DNA of 57,420 nucleotides, from NCBI GenBank assembly GCA_902634935.1, contig CACPMF010000009.1, forward strand, positions 1 through 57,420, written 5' to 3'. Under the pieces are notes generated by a model that was given only the letters and a program-made list of their open reading frames with translations, did not search any database and was not told the origin of the DNA. A program made the position numbers and the translations under genes. Source of the stretch: an uncultured Pelagibacteraceae bacterium (GTDB lineage Bacteria; Pseudomonadota; Alphaproteobacteria; Pelagibacterales; Pelagibacteraceae). Within the stretch, counting starts at the first letter, position 1. Every line of letters begins with the position of its first letter. Shown in pieces: positions 44,420 through 50,244 of the stretch.

Positions 44420-45636
44420 TATATGTTAAATATTTTTTTACAATTTTCAATTGATTGGCTTAATTGATCAATATCATCTTTTGTATTATATATTCCAAAT
44501 GATGCTCTTGCAGTAGCTGGGAGTTTAAGTTTTTCATGTAATATCTGGCAGCAATGATGTCCTGCTCTGATTGCTACTCCATCTTCATCAAGAATAGTTG
44601 CAATATCATGTGGGTGAACACCTTCAATGGTAAAAGAAATCACTCCACCTTTATTTTTTGGATTACCTACAATTTTTATTGAATTATTTTTCCCCAAAAT
44701 ATCTAATCCATAATTCAATAACTCTTTCTCGTGCTTTTCTATATTTTCAATACCAACTTTTTCCATAAATTTTATAGATTCGTTAAATGCAATTACTTGG
44801 GCTGTTGCCATTGTACCTGCCTCATATTTATTTGGTAGTTCACCATAAGAAATTCCAGTTTTTTTAACTTCATTTATCATTCCTCCACCACCTTGGTATG
44901 GAGGTAGATCGTCTAACCATTTCTTTTTTGCGTATAAAACCCCAATTCCTGTTGGCCCATACATTTTATGTCCTGATATAGCATAAAAATCACAATCTAA
45001 TTCCTGCATATCTAATTTTAAATGTGGTGCTCCTTGGCAACCATCCACTAAAACAGGAATATTTTTTGAGTGCGCAAGTTCTACAATTTCCTTAATCGGT
45101 AATATTGCTCCAGTTACATTTGATAAATGAGTGACGCTTATAATTTTTGTTTTACTAGTTATTTTGTTTTTTATTGCTTCAATAGTTATCTCACCTGCTT
45201 CATTAATCTCAGCAAATTCAATTTTAATTTTTTTTGAATTTCTTAGGAAATGCCAAGGAACATAATTAGAATGATGTTCAAGTTCTGTTAATAAAACTTC
45301 ATCACCTTCTTCTAGATACTTTTGCCCAAAGGTATTTGCTACCAAATTAATTGCTTCTGTAGCACCTTTGGTAAATACAATTTCATTCTTATCTTTGGCA
45401 TTAATATATCTTTGAACTGATGTTCTTGTATTTTCATAAAGATTTGTTGCAGCAACAGCTAAATAATGAACACTTCTACCTACATTAGAAAACTCTTTAG
45501 AATAAAAATCATATATTCTATCAATTACTACTCTAGGTTTTTGTGAGGAGTTTGCGCTGTCTAAATATACAAGATCATTATTTTGAACTTTGTTGTCAAA
45601 TATTGGAAATTCTTTTTTAATGTTATCTATATCCAT
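44419..45636 (-). CDS. sufS: Cysteine desulfurase SufS
   Basis: A 405-residue class V PLP enzyme: YLDSANSSQKP, TKGATEAINLVA, HHSNYVPWH, PLP-Lys in DFYAISGHKMYGPTGIGVLY, and the sulfur-accepting Cys in AIRAGHHCCQILHEKL. It takes sulfur from cysteine, forming alanine and an enzyme persulfide, for transfer to SufU and SufB. It abuts sufD and sufU with one-base overlaps. Confidence 0.97.
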   Translation of the reverse strand: MDIDNIKKEFPIFDNKVQNNDLVYLDSANSSQKPRVVIDRIYDFYSKEFSNVGRSVHYLAVAATNLYENTRTSVQRYINAKDKNEIVFTKGATEAINLVANTFGQKYLEEGDEVLLTELEHHSNYVPWHFLRNSKKIKIEFAEINEAGEITIEAIKNKITSKTKIISVTHLSNVTGAILPIKEIVELAHSKNIPVLVDGCQGAPHLKLDMQELDCDFYAISGHKMYGPTGIGVLYAKKKWLDDLPPYQGGGGMINEVKKTGISYGELPNKYEAGTMATAQVIAFNESIKFMEKVGIENIEKHEKELLNYGLDILGKNNSIKIVGNPKNKGGVISFTIEGVHPHDIATILDEDGVAIRAGHHCCQILHEKLKLPATARASFGIYNTKDDIDQLSQSIENCKKIFNI

Positions 45637-46856
45637 TAATTTATCGCCTCCTTTAGATATTTCTGTATTTTGATGTTTGTAATTTTTTCAATTACATCAT
45701 TAATGAAACCATCTATAAGTAACTTTTTTGCCTGATCGTAATTTAAACCTCTAGACATTAGGTAGAATATGGAGTTTTCATCCAAATTGCCTGAAGTAGA
45801 ACCATGAGAACATTTTACATCATCTGCGTAAATTTCTAATTCTGGTTTACCATTAAATTCTGTATTTTCGTTTAAAAGTAAGGCTTTACTTAATTGATAT
45901 CCGTCTGTTTTTTGAGCTTGATCGTTAACAAAAATTTTACCTTGATAAACTCCAGTAGACTTATCGTTTAAAACACTTTTTATTAATTGATAACTTTTTG
46001 TATTTTCGGCCAAATGGTTAATATTTGTTTTAATTTCATGATGATTGTTCTTGTCTAAATTTATAATCCCATTAATAAAAGCAGAGCTATATTTTTCTTT
46101 TAAATTGCTGTTTATTTCATATTTTGAAAATTTAGATCCAGATGAATAAATAAAGTTTTCTGAATTACTGTTTTCATAAATATCAATATTAGTGAAGCTG
46201 TATCTTAGATTTTGATTTTTATTTAAATCAAAAATATAATTTTTAAGGTTTGAATTTTTATTTATAACAATATTAAAGTTATGATTATTAAAACCACTAA
46301 CTGATTTATCTTCGAATAAATTCAAAGTTGATAAAGATGAATTTTTATGAAGTGTTAATTCAAATCTTGTATTTATTAAATTTGTATCGCTATCTAAATC
46401 ACATATGTGGTAAATAACTAAAGGTTTTTCTACAATTTTACCCTCTAAAACATTTAATTTAATTAATTTACTCGCAAAAGCCTTGTTCAAATTATTTAAA
46501 GGTTCATTCAAACTTTCACTAAAAATCAAGTTTTCATTTTTTATCTCTATTTTATTTTTATCTATATCTAAAATATCTTCTGATAGGAACTCTCCATTTA
46601 AAATAACAATTTTTGAATGTTCAAAATGTTTTGTAAATTTTAAATTGTAACTTTTATTTTCAATGGTATTAAAGCCAAATTTAAGCTCCTTTATGTTTTT
46701 ATTTATAATAGATTTTAAATCTGAAAACTTCCAATCTTCCAATTTTTTTGAGGGAAACCCACTTTCTACAAATTTATAAAAATGCTCTTTACGCTCTTTA
46801 GTGTTTCCTAAAGTTTCATAAGTTAAACTTTCAAATTCTAAATTTTCTTTTAACAT
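45636..46856 (-). CDS. sufD: Fe-S cluster assembly protein SufD
   Basis: A 406-residue protein of the SufB/SufD family: FPSKKLEDWKFSDLKSI at the N-terminus, a divergent Asn/Lys-rich central beta-helix, and the well-conserved C-terminus LEIYADDVKCSHGSTSGNLDENSIFYLMSRGL with KCSHG. It forms the SufBC2D scaffold with SufB and SufC. The low-complexity middle reflects AT-driven drift in this lineage. Confidence 0.95.
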   Translation of the reverse strand: MLKENLEFESLTYETLGNTKERKEHFYKFVESGFPSKKLEDWKFSDLKSIINKNIKELKFGFNTIENKSYNLKFTKHFEHSKIVILNGEFLSEDILDIDKNKIEIKNENLIFSESLNEPLNNLNKAFASKLIKLNVLEGKIVEKPLVIYHICDLDSDTNLINTRFELTLHKNSSLSTLNLFEDKSVSGFNNHNFNIVINKNSNLKNYIFDLNKNQNLRYSFTNIDIYENSNSENFIYSSGSKFSKYEINSNLKEKYSSAFINGIINLDKNNHHEIKTNINHLAENTKSYQLIKSVLNDKSTGVYQGKIFVNDQAQKTDGYQLSKALLLNENTEFNGKPELEIYADDVKCSHGSTSGNLDENSIFYLMSRGLNYDQAKKLLIDGFINDVIEKITNIKIQKYLKEAIN

Positions 46857-47588
46857 TTATAAACTCTCATAACCTTGTTTTTCTAATTCTATTGCTAATT
46901 CAAAATTTCCAGTTTTTATTATTTTTCCGTCTTTCAAAACATGAACGAAATCTGGCTTTATATAATTAAGTAATCTTTGATAATGCGTTATTATTAAAAA
47001 AGAATTATTTGTATTTCTTAATGAGTTTACTCCATCGGAAACTATTTTAAGTGCATCAATATCTAAACCAGAGTCTGTTTCATCTAATATTGATAATTTT
47101 GGATTTAAGATAGACATTTGAAGAATTTCATTTTTTTTCTTTTCTCCTCCTGAAAATCCTACATTTAGCTGTCGTGACAAAATATTTTGATCAAATTTTA
47201 ATTGTGCAGATTTTTCTTTCACAAGCTTAAGAAATTCAATTGCATCTAATTCTTTTTCACCTTTTGCTTTTTTCACAGCATTTAATGAAGTTTTTAAAAA
47301 GTTGTTAGTGTTTACACCTGGAATTTCTAGAGGATACTGGAATGCTAAAAATATTCCTTTATGGGCCCTCTCTTCAATTTCAAGATTGAGTAAGTTGGAA
47401 TTTTCAAATTTTACATCCCCTTTGATTTCATAACCTTTTTTTCCAGATAAAATATTTGATAAAGTACTTTTTCCTGATCCATTTGGACCCATTATTGCAT
47501 GAACTTCTCCAGGATTTATTTTTAAGCTAAGTCCTTTTAGAATTTCTTTGTTATCAATACCTGCTTCTAAATTGTTTATTTCCAACAT
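46857..47588 (-). CDS. sufC: Fe-S cluster assembly ATPase SufC
   Basis: A 243-residue ABC ATPase: Walker A GPNGSGKST (about 34-42), the SufC-typical FLAFQYPLEIPGVNTNNFL, signature FSGGEKKKNEILQM, Walker B LSILDETDSGLDIDAL, and ITHYQRLL. It powers scaffold rearrangement in SufBC2D. It lies between sufB and sufD with no gap. Confidence 0.97.
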   Translation of the reverse strand: MLEINNLEAGIDNKEILKGLSLKINPGEVHAIMGPNGSGKSTLSNILSGKKGYEIKGDVKFENSNLLNLEIEERAHKGIFLAFQYPLEIPGVNTNNFLKTSLNAVKKAKGEKELDAIEFLKLVKEKSAQLKFDQNILSRQLNVGFSGGEKKKNEILQMSILNPKLSILDETDSGLDIDALKIVSDGVNSLRNTNNSFLIITHYQRLLNYIKPDFVHVLKDGKIIKTGNFELAIELEKQGYESL

Positions 47589-49024
47589 TATCCAACACTT
47601 CCTTCCAAACTAATTCCAACTAATTTTTGCGCTTCAACAGCAAATTCCATTGGTAATTGTTGAAGAACTTCTTTACAAAAACCGTTAACTATTAGCCCTA
47701 CTGCTTCCTCTGAATTTAAACCTCTTTGTTGACAATAATATAATTGTTCTTCACTGATTTTTGATGTTGTTGCCTCATGTTCTATATTTGAGTCTGAATT
47801 TCTATTTTTAATGTAAGGAACAGTGTGTGCACCACATTTATTACCCATTAACAGTGAGTCACACTGTGTAAAGTTTCTAGCATTTTTAGCTTTTGGAAAA
47901 ATATCTACAAGACCTCTATAAGTATTATCAGCGTATCCAGCTGAAATACCTTTGGATATTATTTTACTTTTAGTATTTTTGCCAATATGAATCATTTTAG
48001 TACCAGTATCTGCTTTTTGATGGTTATTTGTAATTGCAATTGAGTAAAATTCTCCAACAGAGTTGTCTCCTTGCAAAATACAACTAGGATATTTCCAAGT
48101 AATTGCTGAACCAGTTTCTACTTGCGTCCAAGATATTTTAGAATTTACACCTTTGCATAATCCTCTTTTAGTTACAAAATTATAAATCCCACCCTTGCCA
48201 TCTTTATCTCCTGGGTACCAATTTTGGACAGTTGAATATTTTATTTCTGCATCATCTAATGCAACAAGTTCAACATTTGCTGCATGTAATTGGTTTTCAT
48301 CTCTCATAGGAGCAGTACATCCTTCCAGATAGCTAACATAACTTCCTTTGTCCGCGATGATTAAAGTTCTTTCAAACTGACCTGTCTCGGATGCATTAAT
48401 TCTAAAATATGTTGATAATTCCATAGGACATCTTACACCCTCTGGAATGTAAACAAATGAACCATCAGTAAACACTGCAGAATTTAAAGTTGCAAAATAA
48501 TGATCAGTAACTGGTATAACTGAACCAAGATACTTTTTTACTAATTCTGGATGTTTTTGAATAGCCTCAGACATTGAACAAAATATTATTCCTTTTTCAG
48601 TCAGCTTATCTTTAAATGTTGTTGCAACTGAAACAGAGTCAAAAACAGCATCTACTGCTATTCCATTTAATCTCTTTTGTTCTTGAAGTGGTATACCAAG
48701 TTTTTGATAAGTTTCTAAAAGCTTCGGATCTAATTCATCTAAACTTTTTGGTTTATCAGAGGCACTTTTGGGAGCTGAATAATAATATAAGTCTTGGTAA
48801 TCTATTTTTGGATATTTCGGTTTTTGCCAATTTGGTTCTTTTAAGTTTTTTAATCTTTCAAATGCTTTTAATCTCCAATCTAGCATCCAGTCTGGTTCTT
48901 TTTTTATTTTAGATATAAATTTTATTACTTCCTCATTTAGACCTTTTGGTGCTCTGATATTTTCTATATCAGTTGTAAATCCATATTTATATTCTTTTAA
49001 ATCTTCTATTTGTTTATCTCTCAT
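47588..49024 (-). CDS. sufB: Fe-S cluster assembly scaffold SufB
   Basis: A 478-residue protein: [86 protein letters not shown], and [21 protein letters not shown]. It carries the cluster-assembly cysteines of the SufBC2D scaffold. It is the first structural gene after the regulator. Confidence 0.97.
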
Positions 49025-49447
49025 TTATAATCTATTTGTTGATTGATTTAGTAAATCTCTAAGACTTTTTTTTTCAAAAAAATTATTTATATAATCCTCT
49101 AATTCATCCCAAAGATCATGGGTGATGCATTTTGCTGTTTTGCCGTTGCACCCTTTTTTTGAATGTTTTTCACACCCTATAGTTTTTACTTTTTCATCTA
49201 CTGCAAAAAAGATATCTGAGATTTTAATATTAGAAGCTTCTTTTGATAGAATGTATCCACCCTTAATACCACGAACACTATTTACAATATTATTTTTTTT
49301 TAACTTTAAAAATAATTGTTCGAGATAAACTAAAGATATTCCTTGTCTCAAAGAAATATCTCTTAAAGAAACTGGCTCATTAGGATCAAACTTAGCCAGA
49401 TCTGCAAGCGCCATAACTGCGTATCTTCCTTTACTTGATAATTTCAT
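49025..49447 (-). CDS. iscR: Rrf2-family iron-sulfur regulator, IscR-type
   Basis: A 140-residue Rrf2 protein: SSKGRYAVMALADLA, winged helix with ISLRQGISLVYLEQLFLKLKKNNIVNSVRGIKGGY, and cysteines C92, C100 and C107 followed by ITHDLW with H110, the [2Fe-2S] ligand set of IscR. Spacings are 7 and 6 residues rather than the 5 and 5 of E. coli IscR, so the cluster site may differ in stability. It begins the SUF operon. A near-consensus IscR type-1 operator lies over its own promoter, so negative autoregulation by Fe-S status is the likely control. Confidence 0.9.
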   Translation of the reverse strand: MKLSSKGRYAVMALADLAKFDPNEPVSLRDISLRQGISLVYLEQLFLKLKKNNIVNSVRGIKGGYILSKEASNIKISDIFFAVDEKVKTIGCEKHSKKGCNGKTAKCITHDLWDELEDYINNFFEKKSLRDLLNQSTNRL

Positions 49448-49468
49448 ATTATTATTATTTTATGCGGG

Positions 49469-49497
49469 TTATATATATACCCGACTAAAATAGTCAA
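49469..49497 (-). promoter_or_regulatory. Promoter of the iscR-suf operon
   Basis: On the minus strand, TTGACT (49497-49492), a 17-bp spacer, and ATATAA (49474-49469; TATATA one base upstream also possible) form a good sigma70-type promoter about 25 bp before the iscR ATG at 49447. It coincides with the IscR-type operator and with a CGGGT-N9-ACCCG inverted repeat (49465-49483). Confidence 0.75.
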
Positions 49498-49501
49498 GTT
49501 T
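49477..49501. promoter_or_regulatory. IscR type-1 operator overlapping the suf promoter
   Basis: The plus strand reads ATACCCGACTAAAATAGTC (49477-49495) and then AAGTTT. It contains the near-palindrome GACTA-AAA-TAGTC and fits the E. coli type-1 consensus (ATA-S-Y-Y-GACT-R-www-Y-AGTC-RR-S-T) at almost every position. It covers the -35 box, so binding of [2Fe-2S]-IscR would block transcription when Fe-S clusters are plentiful. Confidence 0.8.
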
Positions 49502-49578
49502 CACGAAAATTTTAAAACTTGCATTTTGTCGCTCAATTTTGATAGAAAAATAAAATTTTTTTTTGAGATTAATTATCA

Positions 49579-50244
49579 ATGACAACTACAGATAACAAAA
49601 TTGTTGAAATATTTATTCCTGGGCCAGCAGGAAGGCTAGAAGCAAAATATTATAAAAGTAAAAAAAATACATCTCCAATTGCATTAGTTTTGCACCCCCA
49701 CCCTCAATATGGTGGAACTATGAATAATAAAGTTGTTGTTGATACTTTTCAAACTTTTATGGATAACGACTTTTCAGTCTGTAGAGTAAACTTTAGAGGA
49801 GTTGGTAAAAGTGATGGAGAATTTGATAATGGTCAGGGTGAGTTAGCAGATGCTGCCGCTGCACTTGATTGGTTGGAGAGAGAAAACTTTGACAATTCAC
49901 AATGTTGGATTTCAGGATTTTCCTTTGGATCATTAATTGCAATGCAATTACTTATGAGAAGACCAGAAATAAATAGATTTGTTGCAATTTCACCCCAACC
50001 AAATGTTTATGATTTTTCATTTTTATCACCATGTCCTACATCAGGAATAATGATTTATGGTAAAAAAGATGAATTGGTTCCTGTTGAACATATTAACGAT
50101 TTAAACAAAAGACTAAGTGCTCAAAAAGGAATCAAAGTAGAATTTGATTCTATTACAGAAGCAAATCATTTCTTCTCAAAAGCTGATATTTCTCTTATCA
50201 AATCTTTAAATAAATATATTAAAAAAGAAACAGCTCTATATTAA
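49579..50244 (+). CDS. Alpha/beta hydrolase
   Basis: A 221-residue protein: ALVLHPHPQYGGTMNNKVV (oxyanion region with HPHP), RVNFRGVGKSDGEFDNGQGELADAAAALDW, the nucleophile elbow WISGFSFGSLIAMQLL with Ser, then Asp in YGKKDELVP and His in ANHFFSKAD as the triad. This is the YpfH/DUF-type dienelactone-hydrolase-like group widespread in alphaproteobacteria, with unknown substrate. It is divergent from the iscR-suf operon across 131 bp that hold the suf promoter. Confidence 0.9.
   Translation: MTTTDNKIVEIFIPGPAGRLEAKYYKSKKNTSPIALVLHPHPQYGGTMNNKVVVDTFQTFMDNDFSVCRVNFRGVGKSDGEFDNGQGELADAAAALDWLERENFDNSQCWISGFSFGSLIAMQLLMRRPEINRFVAISPQPNVYDFSFLSPCPTSGIMIYGKKDELVPVEHINDLNKRLSAQKGIKVEFDSITEANHFFSKADISLIKSLNKYIKKETALY

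Follow-up and report, generated by a model that had tools for sequence, protein, structure and literature searches.

A conserved putative IscR operator at the iscR-suf promoter and a Fur-like box at the divergent hydrolase gene in Pelagibacteraceae

The iscR-suf locus and its IscR protein

We analysed a 57,420-nucleotide stretch of DNA (the window) that belongs to an assembly of 1.06 Mb, 79% complete. On its minus strand iscR is followed by sufB, sufC and sufD, in that order, and a hydrolase gene lies upstream in divergent orientation (Table 1). The iscR promoter reads AAACTTGACTATTTTAGTCGGGTATATATATAACCCGCATAAAATAATAATAATATG on the minus strand, and a predicted type-1 IscR operator, ATACCCGACTAAAATAGTCAAGTTT when read on the plus strand from 49477 to 49501, overlies its -35 hexamer and spacer. 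The promoter escaped a generic sigma-70 scan, which requires a T at the end of the -10 hexamer that the candidate, TATATA, does not have; the -10 given here was assigned from column conservation across 84 promoters and not from the scan.

Table 1. Genes and predicted regulatory features of the iscR-suf region, in window coordinates
Feature	Position	Strand	Evidence
iscR, 140 aa, Rrf2 family	49025..49447	-	Pfam Rrf2 121 bits; TIGR02010 166 bits (cut-off 207.55); E. coli IscR structures E 6.6e-32
sufB	47588..49024	-	NF008773 / TIGR01980 above cut-off
sufC	46857..47588	-	TIGR01978 above cut-off
sufD	45636..46856	-	TIGR01981 above cut-off
Type-1 IscR operator (predicted) AAACTTGACTATTTTAGTCGGGTAT	49477..49501	-	24/25 positions of the E. 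coli consensus; 84/84 genus promoters with <=4 mismatches; best site in 10/10 genomes
-35 hexamer TTGACT, within the left half of the operator	49492..49497	-	TTGACY in 84/84 genus promoters
Probable -10 hexamer TATATA (genus: TATAWA), spacer 16 bp	49470..49475	-	Column conservation, 84 promoters
CCC of possible C-rich discriminator, 3' of the -10	49466..49468	-	C per column: 57, 65 and 58 of 84 promoters
CGGGT-N9-ACCCG palindrome, judged a chance overlap	49465..49483		Perfect in 3/84 promoters
Fur-like box, core TGAGATTAATTATCA (49564-49578) ending at the hydrolase start codon	49560..49584	+	Model R2 26.1 bits, the site itself being in the training set
Divergent alpha/beta hydrolase, 221 aa	49579..50244	+	Pfam Abhydrolase_1 46 bits; class-wide iscR neighbour

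The window IscR has its nearest named relatives in Pelagibacteraceae (SAR11), and its best solved relatives are the E. coli IscR structures. It missed the TIGR02010 cut-off for IscR, which was reached by none of the 289 class genomes searched and by one of 14 control genomes, and this cut-off is therefore unfit for Alphaproteobacteria. The cysteine pattern given in the preliminary description, C92-x7-C100-x6-C107-x2-H110, is correct as read, and the Cys3-His ligand positions (C92, C100, C107 and H110) are kept in all 84 IscR proteins of the genus. The wide spacing had been presented as an oddity, but Cx7Cx6CxxH turned out to be the alphaproteobacterial norm, found at 84/84 loci of the genus, 30/30 of other genera of the family, 6/6 of another family and 48 of 70 loci from the class, the last being a non-random sample of the 30 best-scoring and 40 hand-chosen lower-ranking loci. 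Residues R34, Q35, S38, L42, E43, Q44 and R59 are the same in 84/84 genus proteins as in the E. coli IscR sequence used here, which agrees with the alignment to 4hf0.

Conservation and uniqueness of the operator

We scored the operator against the 25-bp type-1 IscR consensus of E. coli, and the two agree at 24 positions. The genus set consisted of 84 iscR promoters from 84 genomes, our own included, of which 24 came from a first collection and 60 were picked among the matches listed of an IscR search. Mismatches to the consensus numbered 0, 1, 2, 3 and 4 in 4, 33, 41, 5 and 1 of these promoters (two or fewer in 78), the strict core GACY-N4-YRGTC is present in 78, and all carry TTGACY. Operator columns have 1.5-2.7 bits where fixed, versus 0.05-0.5 bits in most upstream flanking columns. 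The preliminary description had noted a near-perfect E. coli-like IscR site over the -35 box and proposed a comparison of other SAR11 genomes as a check; that comparison found the operator kept in 84/84 promoters of the same genus.

Within the window the operator is the only match to the consensus with three or fewer mismatches (it has one; shuffled sequences gave a mean of 0.01, with a match in 1 of 100 shuffles), and its core, GACTNNNNYAGTC, occurs exactly only at the iscR promoter in the 1.06-Mb, 79% complete assembly. A sequence model built from 32 distinct operators (R1) and run on 10 genomes placed its top site at the iscR promoter in every one of them (E 3e-7 to 2e-5). Besides the other strand of that site, the next matches in the 10 genomes had E-values of 0.045 or worse and covered the model in part; the search concerns type-1 sites and scored 150 of the 1136-1669 first-look candidates per genome. 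With a single strong type-1 site in the genus, as judged from these 10 genomes, IscR would be a dedicated autoregulator there. A wider regulon of strong type-1 sites was considered and rejected: the extended pattern with up to three mismatches occurred 7 times in the own genome versus 18 times for a reversed-pattern control, and the core with one mismatch 108 versus 203 times. We regard the operator as a genuine and highly conserved example of an established kind of regulatory element. Operators of Rrf2 proteins resemble one another, and a different Rrf2 protein from the IscR encoded beside the site might be its ligand. We find this scarcely plausible, given that the own assembly (79% complete) yielded a single Rrf2 protein, that each genome searched gave one IscR-like match, and that the contact-helix residues of the window IscR agree with those of E. 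coli IscR.

Adjoining the operator is an exact CGGGT-N9-ACCCG palindrome, which the preliminary description had read as a second operator across the spacer and the -10, possibly for another iron regulator. The promoter comparison did not bear this out. The arms are perfect in 3 of the 84 genus promoters, namely the window, L087 and a close relative (the sister genome, L053). Counted over four bases, matching arms numbered 4 at N9, where shuffled partners averaged 2.2 (11% of shuffles attain 4), and 9 at N8, where they averaged 8.0 (41% attain 9), so that the arms are no more complementary than with shuffled partners. About 2.8 inverted pairs of 5-bp arms at spacings of 3-12 are expected by chance in 131 bp of this composition, taken as an average, G/C-rich arms being rarer than that, and the pattern with up to two mismatches occurs twice in the window, as it does in 33 of 100 shuffles. 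Moreover, the left arm is already accounted for as the outer half (RGGT) of the type-1 site, and the right arm falls on the C-rich stretch 3' of the -10. Conservation of that stretch could be cited in favour of a genuine second operator, whether bound by a further IscR dimer or by a different iron regulator, as could the exact palindrome in three genomes; poorly conserved arms that do not co-vary make such an operator very improbable in our judgement. A hairpin or terminator was also rejected, since a scan found none and the arms flank the -10. The palindrome looks like a coincidental pairing of the outer half of the operator with a conserved C-rich discriminator.

The C-rich stretch itself (49466-49468) lies between the -10 and the probable iscR transcription start and is conserved in an AT-rich genus, with CCC present within the 7-base stretch 3' of the -10 in 51/84 promoters. 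It may be a GC-rich discriminator; in E. coli, a C-rich discriminator would suggest stringent control.

Outside the genus the picture changes. The preliminary description had held that the DNA site looks unchanged, and this stands for the own genus but fails for its sisters: in other genera of the family IscR is kept at 30/30 loci and the strict type-1 core at 0/30, so the operator rule is not family-wide. TTGACY is present in 11 of these 30 promoters (0/19 in genus g8), and 27 of 30 share a right half-site, STRGGAWT (L113-L142), suggesting that the sister genera have drifted to another half-site. The DNA-binding domain of IscR differs as well, with N36 in 26/30 versus G36 in 77/84 of the own genus, and T, S or N at residue 29 in 27/30 versus R29 in 84/84. 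In the class sample, a type-1-like site with six or fewer mismatches was found in 36 of 70 iscR upstream regions versus 0 of 350 shuffles, and in another family of the order (f2) five of six loci carry the IscR-like operator TTGACTAAATTAGTAGGTTAT at a distance of 759-760 bases from the iscR start, on its upstream side and with a further gene in between (L027-L031).

A natural deletion was found in one complete, single-contig genome from another genus of the family (G125). No IscR match was found in this whole genome, and the hydrolase is directly divergent from sufB across a gap of 96 bases (L389, read in the suf direction, 1381-1476). In this gap the closest approach to the type-1 consensus differs from it at 10 positions, and the closest to the Fur consensus agrees with it at 10 of 19 positions, both at the level of shuffles. 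Thus iscR and the operator were lost together, in this single case. Among the 17 IscR-less genomes tried, G125 alone is informative: 15 also have no sufB, so that the region is probably absent from those assemblies and co-loss cannot be judged in them, and G210 has a partial sufB.

The divergent hydrolase and its Fur-like box

The hydrolase gene is divergent from and upstream of iscR at 84/84 loci of the genus, 30/30 of other genera, 6/6 of another family and 56 of the 70 class loci; 13 of the 14 class loci without it had just 500 bases of flank. At its start lies a box within four mismatches of TGAGAATAATTATCA in 83/84 genus and 27/30 other-genus loci, a count that stands without a shuffle baseline. 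Using the 19-mer Fur consensus, we found mean scores in the hydrolase-start region of 14.4 in the genus and 15.1 in the other genera versus 11.1 in shuffles. The box of the window itself agrees at 13 of 19 positions, a score that 143 of 1680 shuffles reach. The preliminary description, with its second iron-regulator site, was half right by chance: a conserved Fur-like site is present in this intergenic region at 49560-49584, next to the hydrolase gene and not at the palindrome, so that a second iron-regulator site probably does exist, about 80 bp from the palindrome. In three genomes (G016, G032 and G035; L022, L024 and L025) the Fur-like box and a T-run appear to be tandemly duplicated before the hydrolase.

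We then built a model from 32 variants of the box (R2) and ran it on 10 genomes. Among the matches listed it recovered the hydrolase box, part of its training set, in eight genomes (not in G012 and G127). Outside the training set it found a site immediately before sfuC in 10/10 genomes with E-values of 0.0017 to 0.75, the weaker of which are not significant alone and draw their significance from the position upstream of sfuC. This gene encodes a periplasmic Fe3+-binding protein that is FutA-like (2pt1, E 1.7e-85). When R2 was run on 20 genomes, a match lay upstream of sfuC in all 20, as did 49 of the 51 sites among the matches listed. Tandem GATAAT-type boxes were seen upstream of sfuC in 20/20 genomes (L289-L308). 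Matches inside the sdhD coding sequence (L281 and L283) were taken as chance. The Fur-like box was rejected as a class-wide feature, the 56 class hydrolase loci outside the family scoring no better than shuffles. FUR-family genes number three in each of four complete genomes and one, a weak match, in the own assembly.

In published work on iron limitation sfuC was 16-fold up (PMC2864753). A survey of SAR11 Fur boxes describes a 7-1-7 type (PMC4771312), and an inverted repeat of the TGATAAT-N-ATTATCA type before Fe3+ ABC transporter genes is common to that survey and to our results. According to the survey passages on these boxes, every one of them stands ahead of Fe3+ transporter components or FTR1, and the hydrolase/iscR box is not listed there. 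P. ubique HTCC1062 was itself reported to have no classical Fur box (PMC3090418). This report would favour a different reading of 49560-49584, in which it is no operator but serves the promoter or the translation start of the hydrolase gene, and in the window the box does adjoin the start codon, preceded by a T-run and by a plausible -35 of the TTGTC type. However, the distance from box to start codon differs between species, Fur 19-mer scores exceed those of shuffles in the genus and in the other genera, class loci outside the family have the hydrolase but not the box, and R2 finds its matches directly upstream of sfuC in 10/10 and 20/20 genomes. We consider such an element rather unlikely. 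The hydrolase is probably controlled separately, by a Fur-type regulator acting from the box at the gene start.

From this we suggest, with even confidence for and against, a two-sensor iron switch in Pelagibacteraceae, in which IscR would repress the suf operon and a Fur-type regulator would repress the class-wide hydrolase. The hydrolase-iscR partnership is conserved across Alphaproteobacteria, but the Fur-like box would be a family invention. If this is true, the hydrolase is an unrecognised SAR11 iron-stress enzyme that adds one more gene to a very small Fur regulon.

Proposed regulation and known systems

The joint explanation that best fits the sequence data, and one in which we have high confidence, is that 49477-49501 serves as the operator for repression of iscR-sufBCD by IscR, that the palindrome is due to chance and that the hydrolase is controlled separately, probably by Fur. 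The sequences themselves, their conservation, the uniqueness of the operator and one co-loss are what the data show; from them we infer binding, its dependence on the cluster, the direction of regulation and which regulator acts at the second site. When Fe-S clusters are ample, [2Fe-2S]-IscR would bind 49477-49501, cover the -35 and spacer and exclude RNA polymerase. Upon iron or Fe-S shortage, apo-IscR would release the operator and the operon would rise about twofold. The hydrolase would be controlled apart from suf through the box at its start, probably by Fur.

This arrangement resembles the E. coli iscR promoter, at which Giel et al. 2006 are said to have described type-1 IscR sites: in both, a 25-bp near-palindrome, ATASYYGACTRWWWYAGTCRRSTAT, lies over the -35, and the first gene of an Fe-S operon is autoregulated (proposed here for SAR11). 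The SAR11 promoter differs in having a single site, whereas that of E. coli has two in tandem, and the SAR11 operon is iscR-sufBCD with no further strong type-1 site in the 10 genomes, unlike E. coli.

The transcripts reported for P. ubique under iron limitation fit autorepression of iscR-suf by IscR. The suf operon mRNA was 1.8-2.4-fold up (PMC2864753 Table 1), although the protein was not, and SAR11_0738, annotated as 'sufA, transcriptional regulator', was 1.76-fold up (P = 0.062; PMC2864753). We equate SAR11_0738 with iscR since it is the first gene of the operon; the word IscR is absent from the suf passages of that paper.

Closer parallels are found within the class. In Caulobacter crescentus, IscR binds over the iscR -35 and represses in iron, as proposed here for SAR11, and its ligands (Cys95-Cys105-Cys112-His115) are widely spaced as well; the isc-suf operon is described as not under Fur, which we list as common with SAR11 (PMC11475020). 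However, the reported Caulobacter regulon comprises 302 genes versus one strong type-1 site in SAR11, and in an iscR mutant most suf genes hardly changed (PMC11475020). Rhodobacter sphaeroides shares IscR autorepression of isc-suf (proposed here for SAR11), an IscR-box like GACTATTTCTGTCGG and a hydrolase gene in divergent orientation, RSP_0444, which has a promoter to itself, P5 (PMC4618611, PMC6956336). RSP_0444 is a putative hydrolase and a positional homologue, and P5, which responds to OxyR, increases transcription of iscR (PMC6956336). The R. sphaeroides IscR is a single-Cys protein, unlike the Cys3-His IscR of SAR11, and the passages on P5 describe it as unchanged in the other mutants tested and report no Fur-like box (PMC4618611, PMC6956336). 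Our literature search found no paper on an IscR regulon in Pelagibacter, the SAR11 predictions of Rodionov et al. 2006 lying outside its scope, and a text search found none naming IscR, hydrolase, alphaproteobacteria and divergent orientation together. Beyond the operator itself, the analysis adds a regulon with a single strong site, one joint loss of iscR and operator and two new points, namely the change of half-site in sister genera and the Fur-like box in front of the divergent hydrolase gene.

SAR11 bacteria are very abundant, often iron-limited and hard to modify genetically, and the published passages on suf induction in iron limitation name no regulator for it. A single-site IscR autoregulator would give this induction a simple mechanism. 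The divergent hydrolase, which lies beside iscR class-wide and has a Fur-like box only in the family, is a concrete candidate for an iron-stress function. Finally, the drift of the half-site between genera, together with the changes involving R29 and G36 in the DNA-binding domain of IscR, provides a natural experiment on the specificity of Rrf2 proteins.
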